Virus record (IMG/VR): IMGVR_UViG_3300008107_000208 | Span: 1-64,000 of that record | Reading direction: 5' to 3' (one strand) | DNA from: a virus | Length of the DNA stretch: 64,000 bases | Part shown: in pieces, positions 24,807 through 59,787 of the stretch | Numbering within the stretch: position 1 is the stretch's first letter | Layout: every line of letters begins with the position of its first letter | Made by a program: the position numbers and the translations under genes | Notes under the pieces: model-generated | What the model was told of the DNA's origin: nothing | Seen by the model: only the letters and a program-made list of their open reading frames with translations | Databases searched by the model: none

Positions 24807-25067
24807 ATGGGAAAGGGTATCAATATTATTCACATAAATTGTGATCCTTCTTTTGCTGACGATAAGAGTCTTCCAAGAGATTCTTATCTAGTATCTTATG
24901 GTGATAATGATGAAGAAAAGTTTGATGTAGTTCAAGGTCTTCGCTCTGATATCTTTGACCACTATTGGGATAAGTATCGTGATGTAAGACGAATGGATTG
25001 GACTCAAGGTACAGTCAATCCAAAGTCATGGGGTTATAATGTGCCTGAAAAGAAAAAGCGAAAGTAG
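24807..25067 (+). CDS. Hypothetical protein (86 aa)
   Basis: ATG at 24807, two bases after the previous stop, gives an 86-residue charged protein (GKGINIIHINCDPSFADD ... SYLVSYGDNDEEKFDV) ending in a basic KKKRK tail. No motif is recognised. It ends a transcription unit closed by a terminator-like hairpin. Confidence 0.6.
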   Translation: MGKGINIIHINCDPSFADDKSLPRDSYLVSYGDNDEEKFDVVQGLRSDIFDHYWDKYRDVRRMDWTQGTVNPKSWGYNVPEKKKRK

Positions 25068-25107
25068 TTTCCAATATCGCTAATAATTTTTCCGGCAAAA
25101 TTTTCTT

Positions 25108-25140
25108 GCGTGAGGGTTTTCACAAATCTTCACGCTTTTT
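25108..25140 (+). terminator. Terminator-like hairpin
   Basis: GCGTGA (25108-25113) pairs with TCACGC (25130-25135), followed by five Ts; the loop is 16 bases. Confidence 0.55.
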
Positions 25141-25200
25141 AGTATAATATAGATACCATTTAGTATCTTATGTTACTGTTTTCACACATATAAGACCTAT

Positions 25201-25244
25201 ATAGGATGAATAGGGGTATAATAATCCCCTAACGTTCATCCTAT
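25201..25244 (+). promoter_or_regulatory. Hairpin with embedded TATAAT before the small-gene cluster
   Basis: ATAGGATGAA (25201-25210) is fully complementary to TTCATCCTAT (25235-25244), and TAGGGG (25211-25216) to CCCCTA (25226-25231), with a 3-base ACG bulge. The loop holds TATAAT (25217-25222). If this is the -10 element, transcription starts near 25229 and the mRNA begins just before the riboswitch-like CGTTC at 25233, with the ATG only about 14 bases in. Confidence 0.5.
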
Positions 25245-25485
25245 GACTAAAGCACTTTTGCTTTTAGCATGGGTTCCACTTCTTTCTGTTTCAACGCCAC
25301 GACTTATACAGAATCCATATCCTGTGACTATAAGTTGTGACGCAGCGTGGGAACTAATGGACATCGTTAAAAACGACGATGTAGTAGACCAAAGAAGAGA
25401 AGACCGATTGCTATTAGAACTCCGAAAGGATGTTGTTCAAAGGTGCTAAAAACTGAATAGGACGCAAGTAAGCCGACTCGGAACG
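25233..25485 (+). ncRNA. Glutamine-II (downstream-peptide) riboswitch-like unit 1, split by an ORF
   Basis: P1 would be CGTTC (25233-25237) with GAACG (25481-25485). P2 would be TCCTAT (25239-25244) with ATAGGA (25457-25462). After P2 comes CGCAAGTAAGCCGACTC (25463-25479), close to the conserved core of glutamine riboswitches (CGnAAGUAGG ... GGAACG). Uniquely, the P2 loop of about 212 bases contains the complete gene 25243-25449. The pairing was read by eye and needs folding and covariance tests. Confidence 0.6.
25243..25449 (+). CDS. Small protein with signal-like N-terminus (68 aa)
   Basis: It starts TKALLLLAWVPLLSVSTP, a hydrophobic leader resembling a signal peptide or anchor. It continues with YPVTISCDAAWELMDIVKN and a basic, charged helix ending VVQRC. 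The start codon overlaps the 5' strand of riboswitch-like P2, so folding of the unit could hide it. No known family. Confidence 0.6.
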   Translation: MTKALLLLAWVPLLSVSTPRLIQNPYPVTISCDAAWELMDIVKNDDVVDQRREDRLLLELRKDVVQRC

Positions 25486-25488
25486 GAT

Positions 25489-25660
25489 CGTTCATCTATG
25501 GAGCAACTCTTTTTATCTTGCTTACAGGCACAACTTCTCATTAGTAGAGTTAATGCTAGTAACTTCGTCACTGACCATGAAAAAATTGGTCTCATATTAG
25601 AAATTGAACAAGTCACAAAGAAAGGTTGTTTCATAGACGCAAAAGCCGACTGAAGGAACG
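25489..25660 (+). ncRNA. Glutamine-II riboswitch-like unit 2, split by an ORF
   Basis: P1: CGTTC (25489-25493) with GAACG (25656-25660). P2: TCTATG (25495-25500) with CATAGA (25632-25637). The core CGCAAAAGCCGACTGAAG (25638-25655) matches unit 1 (CGCAAGTAAGCCGACTCG) closely. The P2 bases differ from unit 1 yet still pair perfectly, which is compensatory evidence for the fold. The loop holds gene 25498-25653, whose ATG lies wholly inside P2 and whose stop lies in the core. Only three bases separate units 1 and 2. Confidence 0.6.
25498..25653 (+). CDS. Small protein (51 aa) inside riboswitch-like unit 2
   Basis: Reads EQLFLSCLQAQLLISRVNAS, then a helical acidic segment, and ends CFIDAKAD. The final codons (GACGCAAAAGCCGAC) are also the conserved riboswitch core, so protein and RNA constraints overlap. 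No recognised family. The ATG is base-paired in the proposed structure. Confidence 0.5.
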   Translation: MEQLFLSCLQAQLLISRVNASNFVTDHEKIGLILEIEQVTKKGCFIDAKAD

Positions 25661-25694
25661 GGACTAACCATCTCATTTCTTTAGGAGAAAACCA

Positions 25695-25832
25695 ATGTCG
25701 AAAGTAGTTTATCGTGGTGCTGAATACGATACCGAAAAGCGTATCGCATATCAACAACAGATGATGCAACAACCCCAACAATACAACGAAACCTATCGTG
25801 GTGTTAAGTATGTAAAGGAGGGGCACAAATGA
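25695..25832 (+). CDS. DUF4278-like small protein (45 aa)
   Basis: It has an AGGAG ribosome-binding site at 25683-25687 and starts MSKVVYRGAEYDTEKR. It carries two YRG-x-x-Y motifs (YRGAEY and YRGVKY), the hallmark of the cyanobacterial DUF4278 family, separated by a glutamine-rich stretch. It follows riboswitch-like unit 2 and overlaps the next gene (ATGA). Function unknown. Confidence 0.65.
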   Translation: MSKVVYRGAEYDTEKRIAYQQQMMQQPQQYNETYRGVKYVKEGHK

Positions 25833-59443: not shown

Positions 59444-59531
59444 GGAAGTGAGACTTGGTAGTCAGAGGAGTCTTATAAACTCTTTCCGCCAGATTAGCGG
59501 CTTTGAGGTGGTTCGAATCCACCCACTTCTA
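59444..59531 (+). tRNA. Class II tRNA, anticodon UAU by pairing (possibly degenerate Leu)
   Basis: The acceptor stem pairs 59444-59450 with 59524-59530 (one G-T). The T arm GGTGG-TTCGAAT-CCACC is perfect. There is a long variable arm CCGC-CAGATTA-GCGG. The anticodon stem GGAGT/ACTCT encloses the loop CTTATAA, giving anticodon UAU. The long variable arm is a Leu/Ser/Tyr feature, so the anticodon is at odds with its class. The D arm is weak (GAC/GTC with one-base linker). Confidence 0.6.
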
Positions 59532-59541
59532 TTGGTAGTCG

Positions 59542-59623
59542 TTAGGCAGATAGCCTAAAAAGACGCCAACTTCTACTACGGGTATCTTCCGTAGCGTCGT
59601 ATGGGAAGGGCAATGTTCTTCCC
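59542..59623 (+). ncRNA. Three consecutive hairpins between tRNAs
   Basis: TTAGGC/GCCTAA (59542-59558). CTACGG/CCGTAG with a 7-base loop (59576-59594), extended by GACG/CGTC (59562-59565 with 59595-59598). GGGAAG/CTTCCC (59603-59623). No tRNA can be fitted; it may be a processing signal or a small structured RNA. Confidence 0.45.
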
Positions 59624-59634
59624 AATTACATAAA

Positions 59635-59708
59635 GCAGGTTTAGCAATCTGGTAGAATGCTCAGAACTCATAATTCTGCGAAGGCGAGTTCGATCCTCGC
59701 AACCTGCA
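59635..59708 (+). tRNA. tRNA with CAU anticodon (Met or lysidine-modified Ile)
   Basis: The acceptor GCAGGTT/AACCTGC is perfect. The D arm is GCA/TGC, and the anticodon stem CAGAA/TTCTG has loop CTCATAA, so the anticodon is CAU. The T arm GCGAG-TTCGATC-CTCGC is perfect. Sequence alone cannot tell elongator Met from Ile2. Confidence 0.9.
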
Positions 59709-59713
59709 CCTAC

Positions 59714-59787
59714 GCCCGCATAATCCAACAGGCAGAGATAGGGAGCTTAAAACTCCTCCAGTGTCGGTTCGAATCCGACTGTGGGTA
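59714..59787 (+). tRNA. tRNA with UAA anticodon (Leu) but short variable loop
   Basis: The acceptor GCCCGCA/TGTGGGT has two G-T pairs. The D stem is ATC/GAT, and the anticodon stem GGGAG/CTCCT has loop CTTAAAA, so the anticodon is UAA. The variable loop is only CCAGT, and the T arm GTCGG-TTCGAAT-CCGAC is perfect. Bacterial Leu tRNAs normally have a long variable arm, so this class I shape is odd. Confidence 0.85.

Follow-up and report, generated by a model that had tools for sequence, protein, structure and literature searches.

In this study, we concluded that positions 25233 to 25661 of the window, the whole analysed stretch of 64,000 nucleotides from a 77,205-base virus record, probably encode one composite glutamine riboswitch, in which two half-aptamers exchange strands and the P2 arms serve as cassettes. 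Comparison with related cyanophage loci established the pairing of P2, of P3 and of nucleotides 19 and 41, the coding character of the enclosed open reading frames (ORFs) and the conservation of the pocket letters. An earlier sequence-only reading had described the locus as two tandem, self-closing units, and this part of the description was not supported, as the variable base pairs showed a strand-swapped composite. On these comparisons, we regard the swapped architecture of the two units as very probable.

Anatomy of the locus and its relatives

The letters on which the earlier reading was built were all found where it had placed them, namely CGTTC at 25233 and 25489, GAACG at 25481 and 25656, the P2 pairs TCCTAT 25239 / ATAGGA 25457 and TCTATG 25495 / CATAGA 25632, and two ORFs, one of 68 codons that starts with the ATG at 25243 and one of 51 codons that starts with the ATG at 25498. 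The pocket nucleotides are numbered according to PMC6698751, which, like all papers cited here by PMC number, is represented by excerpts. The parts of the locus are as follows.

25211-25231, + strand: 5' inverted repeat, TAGGGG 25211-25216 / CCCCTA 25226-25231, seen in the window fold and abutting the aptamer
25233-25237, + strand: a1, CGTTC, 5' side of the helix of the outer pocket; its assigned partner is b2 at 25656-25660
25239-25244, + strand: 5' side of arm 1 P2, TCCTAT, overlapping the ATG of ORF1
25243-25449, + strand: ORF1, 68 aa, enclosed by arm 1 P2, with its stop TAA (25447-25449) just 5' of the P2 3' strand
25457-25462, + strand: 3' side of arm 1 P2, ATAGGA, from letters and fold
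25463-25470, + strand: linking strand 1, CGCAAGTA, holding pocket nucleotides 17-20; nucleotide 19 of unit 1 is C25465, which pairs with nucleotide 41 of unit 2 (G25661)
25471-25478, + strand: P3 5' strand, AGCCGACT, pairing with 25644-25651 with two C.A mismatches
25481-25485, + strand: b1, GAACG, partner of a2 (25489-25493) in the permuted inner pocket; nucleotide 41 of unit 1 is G25486
25489-25493, + strand: a2, CGTTC, inner pocket helix, from fold, covariation and 19-41
25495-25507, + strand: 5' side of arm 2 P2, 13 bp with 25625-25637, with the whole ATG (25498-25500) inside
25498-25653, + strand: ORF2, 51 aa, phrog_504-like, ending in DAKAD, with its stop TGA (25651-25653) within the aptamer core
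25625-25637, + strand: 3' side of arm 2 P2, from fold and duplex
25638-25643, + strand: linking strand 2, CGCAAA; its nucleotide 19 is C25640, which pairs with nucleotide 41 of unit 1 (G25486)
25644-25651, + strand: P3 3' strand, AGCCGACT, pairing with 25471-25478
25655-25661, + strand: b2, GGAACG plus nucleotide 41 (G25661); GAACG 25656-25660 is assigned to a1
25676-25687, + strand: possible expression platform, in which TTTCTTTAG (25676-25684) is complementary to the core CTGAAGGAA (25650-25658) and which overlaps the Shine-Dalgarno sequence AGGAG (25683-25687)
25695-25832, + strand: downstream gene, DUF4278-like (YRG...Y), with a Pfam profile match below the cut-off

The inverted repeat at 25211-25231 probably forms a hairpin at the 5' end of the transcript or a dyad of the promoter. 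A repeat of at least 5 bp occurred in the last 45 nt of 144 of the 153 distinct unit-1 upstream sequences, a count made without a control and by picking the best repeat. By eye, and likewise without a control, its arms vary between phages (TGTGTTA/TAACACA, GGTATG/CATACC, TAGGGG/CCCCTA), and the repeat often ends 0-4 nt 5' of the aptamer and lies on a -10-like element or 3' of a TATATA/TAAATA box. The complement ATAGGATGAA / TTCATCCTAT around this repeat was dropped as a candidate feature, as among the relatives listed only L151, L170 and L181 share it. Elsewhere in the window, ARAGORN placed three tRNA genes at 59444-59787 (Ile tat, Met cat, Leu taa), and Rfam called only the last two.

Window positions 25060-25720 matched 137 records of a phage collection, all named as Synechococcus or Prochlorococcus phage, cyanophage or marine virus; among the 40 matches listed, the matched parts were the aptamer cores and the leader that follows. 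Fetched records that bear a family name were mostly Kyanoviridae. Pattern scans of viral contigs found the unit-1 core in at least 119 stretches and the unit-2 core in at least 120. We collected 347 aptamer-like units from 196 loci. The loop was at most 60 nt in 137 of them and long in 210, of which 196 are distinct; 3' halves with no 5' half within 600 nt (10 of 357) were left out of the unit counts, and one ORF of fewer than 35 aa was left out of the ORF counts (196 to 195). Protein-only searches with three families yielded 264, 428 and 332 relatives; the best 80 of each set, in part from contigs already sampled, gave 240 loci, and both aptamer halves flanked the gene in 234 of these, five being cut by contig ends and one (L503) having lost the halves. 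The association of aptamer and ORF is therefore not tied to the choice of RNA pattern. L503 (1500-1900) retains both ORFs, while its unit-1 3' half and the two unit-2 halves are missing or can no longer be recognised, which counts against the composite. A manA RNA (RF01745) lies near the locus in L003 (419-604), L004 (1339-1524) and L045 (2128-2314).

At least one gene-bearing arm was present in 14 of 16 named isolates, and S-PM2 and S-CAM7 had none; such arms occur in P-HM2, MED4-213, P-SSM4, P-SSM2 and Syn1, and S-PM2 has two short loops. An ORF in the loop was not seen as a general trait of glutamine riboswitches, the sampled loops of hosts and other phages being too short. These were scanned with one canonical pattern and judged by loop length against the ORF sizes seen here. 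No ORF-sized loop was found in at least 120 genome loci, where 84 of 90 three-prime halves had loops of at most 60 nt, five had loops of 65-86 nt and the remaining one (L264) had a 635-nt loop without P2 pairing, probably from a wrong 5' half; nor was one found in at least 120 other viral loci, where the loops of all 99 halves were 15-33 nt.

Pairing between the two units

In the crystal structure, the pocket contains C1-G40, G2-C39 with G18, and a long-range pair 19-41 (PMC6698751). The letters C1, G2, G18, C39 and G40 are present in both window units, and the 19-41 pair holds across relatives in the swapped pairing. In 298 distinct tandem pairs, nucleotide 19 of unit 1 and nucleotide 41 of unit 2 were Watson-Crick partners in all 298, and nucleotide 19 of unit 2 and nucleotide 41 of unit 1 in 288, failing in 10, whereas the within-unit pairs were Watson-Crick in only 214 and 215. 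Both within-unit pairs were broken and both swapped pairs intact in 74 tandem pairs, including L513, in which all four letters are flipped. The window itself, with C and G at these positions of both units, has C:G under either pairing and thus does not discriminate; 84 of the 298 tandem pairs do so for unit 1. Loci L197-L436, which were fetched with the canonical pattern, were omitted from this tandem analysis.

P3 also joins the two cores. Among 19 distinct arm combinations, 16 had arms of equal length, and the three with unequal arms (L029, L063 and L111) were represented by one pair each. One end of P3 shows the compensatory changes U-A/G-C/A-U, the opposite end A-U/C-G/G-C; the arms can also shorten jointly (AGUCG:CGACU, AGUCA:UGACU). 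The 12 combinations of 8+8 nt formed on average 6.17 pairs, against 5.28 with swapped partners (reached in 0 of 5000 swaps), and two C.A-type mismatches are retained in most phages. L029 has three consecutive aptamer-like 3' halves, of which the second and third make the matching P3 pair AGUCA:UGACU, leaving the first without a partner. Of the 298 composites, 15 have cores that are not 14/14 nt; these lie outside analysis A8 and enter only the table of P3 arms.

In 16 composites, two-sided changes affected 18 cells of the swapped structure, compared with 6.1 in shuffled alignments (0 of 500 reached it) and 0-3 in slid controls, and the covariation score of this structure also exceeded all shuffles and slides. 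The within-unit structure of the same composites gave one such cell against 1.9 shuffled (reached by 460 of 500), with no covariation above control, and P3 placed inside a single aptamer likewise showed none above control. Each of the 18 natural pairs in which both loops are short had its lower energy in the swapped fold, and the minimum free energy (MFE) folds of these pairs contained the outer helix in 18 cases, the inner hairpin in 15 and a within-unit P1 in none. The linker from b1 to a2 is 3 or 4 nt in 146 of 156 cases, which fits an inner hairpin.

The P1 strands showed no covariation. Their invariance in loci found by pattern follows from the search patterns, which demand those letters, and the protein-selected loci carry the same letters. 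As the P1 strands, a1 included, are invariant, the outer (a1-b2) and inner P1 pairings were assigned from 19-41, P3 and energy, and 19-41 and P3 fit the swapped pairing instead of the P1 helices proposed earlier (25233 with 25481 and 25489 with 25656). In the predicted unliganded MFE fold of the window leader, both P2 stems and the inner hairpin were formed and the outer P1 was not, a result that fits an off state and would be equally expected without any switch.

Glutamine doublets have been described as independent tandems (PMC9481103), and two such aptamers, each with a P1 that closes its own ORF-bearing P2, would find every needed strand within each unit. Within-unit AG/CU hairpins could form in 261 and 258 of the 298 pairs, and single short units reach an Rfam gathering score in 6 of 25 cases from 20 loci. 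Against this stand their own 19-41 pairs, broken in 84 and 83 of the 298 where the swapped ones hold in 298 and 288, the lack of covariation above control and the 0 of 18 MFE folds with their P1. We therefore consider independent aptamers, which were not found to be self-closing here, very unlikely, although they may be possible as a second state of the swapped composite.

Genes enclosed in the P2 arms

As judged from the aligned cyanophages, the P2 stems are real and their bases covary. The P2 pairing that had been read from the window alone proved to be far above chance in partner-swap, one-per-cluster and duplex-energy tests. At least five consecutive pairs were present in 125 of 136 unit-2-type ORF units (partner-swap mean 36.6, maximum 52 in 2000) and in 31 of 36 when one unit was kept per 60% protein cluster (11.1, maximum 19). 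The corresponding unit-1-type counts were 43 of 59 (22.8, maximum 33) and 8 of 10 (4.3, reached by 17 of 2000 swaps). Within clusters, the unit-1 count was not significant (38 of 54 against 34.6, reached by 117 of 2000 swaps), and the unit-1 duplex energy was (0 of 300 swaps). The 22 nt at either end formed duplexes of -13.4 and -12.5 kcal/mol with natural partners and of -9.7 and -8.1 kcal/mol with swapped ones, and 0 of 300 swaps reached the natural values. The unit-2 P2 of the window has 13 uninterrupted pairs and runs into the gene; many unit-1 families have an internal mismatch in P2 or only 3 strict pairs. The covariation count over 36 cluster representatives (34 distinct) found two-sided changes in each of the four variable P2 pairs and in 47 cells, against 18.1 cells in shuffles. 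Only the cells and the score exceeded the shuffles, four such pairs being no more than shuffles give (3.8; 381 of 500).

The earlier claim that whole genes replace the P2 loops was borne out, as the ORFs are coding and their starts and, for the most part, their stops fall in or beside the aptamer, with the start codon partly (unit 1) or wholly (unit 2) in P2. The substitution pattern points to purifying selection on the enclosed ORFs, and a non-coding loop was ruled out by median Ka/Ks values of 0.20 (536 pairs) and 0.25 (587 pairs), taken from pairs with 60-97% amino-acid identity, Ks of 0.05-1.5 and similar length. For ORF1 and 16 relatives among the matches listed, Ka was 0.04-0.14 and Ks 0.12-0.44. 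The first ATG lies 3-7 nt past CGUUCA in 195 of 196 distinct long loops and 14 nt past it in one, and a Shine-Dalgarno-like motif was absent before 192 of the 196 inner ATGs. Stops of the unit-1 type fall at +7 in 36 of 59 ORFs, the other 23 ending 4-16 nt before the core. Those of the unit-2 type fall at +14 in 127 of 137, mostly with the C-terminus DAKAD or a near form, and otherwise at +10 or +27 (3), at -4 (6) or 91 nt early (one).

The enclosed proteins are small and begin with hydrophobic residues, and inspection by eye shows two cysteines in most of them. They form 44 clusters at 60% identity; their PHROG matches are all to families of unknown function. ORF1 has a hydrophobic N-terminus and two Cys, matched nothing in Pfam or PHROG and gave a poor structure model (pLDDT 57). 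The ORF2 model consists of two helices (83.7) and had no match in the PDB with E 0.001 or better. In L587 (about 1500-1610), a very close relative of the window, ORF2 has an in-frame deletion of 16 codons, with P2 and core intact. ORFs of the arm-1 type stand in arm 2 clearly in L122 and, by eye, in L101, and the arms seem to exchange genes.

Such exchange, together with arms that are short or gene-bearing among related phages, would also be expected if the conserved halves were docking sites for gene swaps and RNA structure were secondary, for which the promoter-stem-loop cassettes (PeSLs) of T4-like phages provide a precedent (PMC4503421). Recombination sites, however, would not covary over 143-229 nt or between units, and the compensatory changes track base pairing; we regard docking sites as highly improbable. 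Synonymous codon choice favours P2, since synonymous codon shuffling dropped the mean P2 probability from 0.751 to 0.442 and 44 of 46 representatives had a natural value above the mean of their own shuffles. This codon choice, the reach of P2 into coding sequence, the missing Shine-Dalgarno-like motifs and the 3-7 nt between CGUUCA and ATG in 195 of 196 loops would also suit a ligand-free latch, in which P2 shuts the inner ORFs once their 3' ends have been made (a translation timer) and the cores are relics. The core letters, 19-41 and P3 are, however, kept in the 18 pairs with two short, ORF-less loops, which makes the latch unlikely.

Kinship, switching and meaning

Rfam made no call at the locus at gathering score, and its glutamine families gave no match in 25180-25720 even at E up to 10, which we attribute to the ORFs that sit in the loops. 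Among 25 short-loop units from 20 loci, five reached the gathering score of RF01739 (glnA, glutamine-I) and one that of RF01704, which one further unit, in L004, also reached. Of the earlier term glutamine-II-like, the kinship with glutamine riboswitches stands, whereas the class does not fit as well, as relatives more often reach RF01739 (5 against 1 of 25) and the nested topology is that of glutamine-I. The composite shares with glutamine-I the CGUUCA...CGNAAGUA...GAAGGAACG letters including GAACG, a covarying P2, nested P1/P2/P3, the DUF4278 target and short-loop relatives that pass the gathering score. Unlike glutamine-I, its P1 (by assignment) and P3 join two copies, P3 running between two cores instead of inside the P1 of one aptamer, P2 can hold a gene, and a second, permuted pocket lies inside P3. 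With glutamine-II (RF01704) and its crystal dimer 6QN3 it has in common the pocket letters C1, G2, G18, C19, C39, G40 and G41 and a similar strand exchange, the two-piece form of which binds glutamine (PMC6698751). The second stem of RF01704 (P2 of the crystal, with the loop strand that makes the pseudoknot) was not recognised in Rfam alignments of relatives, which left it mispaired or cut short. The swapped glutamine-II dimer was held by a review to be presumably absent in vivo (PMC7357161); unlike that dimer, the phage copies are covalently linked and covary. By analogy with these riboswitches, the composite likely senses glutamine.

A YRG (DUF4278-like) gene comes next in 162 of 164 distinct downstream sequences, nine further units having too short a flank. 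The window gene matched DUF4278 with E 0.0014 and 19.4 bits, below the cut-off of 25.3, which 3 of 8 tested proteins passed, the window's own being among the five below. Published work names DUF4278 genes among the targets of cyanobacterial glutamine riboswitches, which turn on with glutamine, and reports that one riboswitch of this group activates such a gene (PMC6316151). Complementarity of at least 6 nt between core and leader was found in 105 of 127 leaders, against 13% of mononucleotide-shuffled ones, with few core variants in the comparison; 82 of these 105 stretches end 9-11 nt before the ATG. In the predicted unliganded fold of the window, most of b2 ties up the leader beside the Shine-Dalgarno sequence. 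These data hint at an on-switch in which a1 would take b2 and free the leader, and an on-switch for DUF4278 is the direction that we favour, with some reserve. A leader helix 3' of P1 was not supported as the expression platform (39 of 112, swap mean 31.4, maximum 41).

Considering the results and the behaviour of known glutamine riboswitches, we have proposed a model of the process. The outer pocket, glutamine-I-like, would form from CGUUC 25233 with GAACG 25656 and linking strand 1, which follows arm 1. In the inner pocket, a circularly permuted aptamer, GAACG 25481 would pair with CGUUC 25489 over a 3-nt linker, joined by linking strand 2, which follows arm 2. The shared P3 (25471-25478 with 25644-25651) would tie both pockets, the inner one sitting within the P3 of the outer one, and each P2 arm would consist either of a short hairpin or of a complete small gene that makes the stem with its two ends. 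With glutamine, the pockets would close, a1 would capture b2 and the sequence at the Shine-Dalgarno side of DUF4278 would be freed, turning DUF4278 on, as known glutamine riboswitches do; the inner starts, lacking a Shine-Dalgarno sequence and lying in or by P2, would remain shut, and the enclosed ORFs would be targets of their own aptamer. Without glutamine, or when ribosomes are already on an inner ORF and melt its 3' P2 strand and the stop-bearing core, the inner proteins would be made and the aptamer could not fold. That inner translation would open the sensor is suggested by the anatomy, with the start in or by P2, no Shine-Dalgarno sequence and the stop mostly in the core. The ligand, the direction of switching and the antagonism of inner and outer genes are what we infer, and the antagonism is put forward tentatively. 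Equally tentative is the full picture of an interlocked two-pocket sensor whose arms are the genes that it silences, which would control three proteins in opposite senses and be dismantled by translation of its enclosed genes.

Glutamine doublets, strand swap in a crystal and ORFs in structured RNA are each known; their combination, with genes as aptamer arms, was not found among the open-access literature matches listed, which describe neither an ORF that fills an aptamer loop with its ends as the stem nor a covalently linked, strand-swapped glutamine riboswitch. The earlier statement that no description of an aptamer split by its own target ORF was known holds for this arrangement within those matches, and needs correction in that an upstream ORF inside the Mycobacterium tuberculosis metE B12 aptamer has been published (PMC11260477). 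There, too, a translated ORF within an aptamer affects the downstream gene, but it is short (+123 to +170) and lies in a peripheral P9-P10 extension, and in the excerpt its ends are not described as stem-forming. Tandem glutamine riboswitches likewise carry two successive glutamine aptamers ahead of a single gene; in the excerpt of PMC9481103 they are called pseudo-cooperative tandems, whereas the variable pairs of the phage RNA run between units. In group I introns such as T4 td with I-TevI, the end of a peripheral-loop ORF creeps into the conserved core ("core creep"), which needs co-evolution and sets ribosome against fold (PMC3073962); those RNAs, however, are ribozymes with a homing endonuclease, not aptamers, and do not have two arms.

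If correct, the composite would be a natural, covalently linked counterpart of the strand-swapped glutamine aptamer known from the crystal, and would mean that aptamer arms can be whole genes, with first and last codons serving as a stem. It would be a clean case of protein code and RNA structure constraining the same bases over about 150-230 nt. The annotation of small phage genes and of riboswitches would be affected, the Rfam search having missed the window locus. Furthermore, the proposal could be tested in isolates, as phages with gene-bearing arms (e.g., P-HM2 and P-SSM4) and with two short loops (S-PM2) exist.
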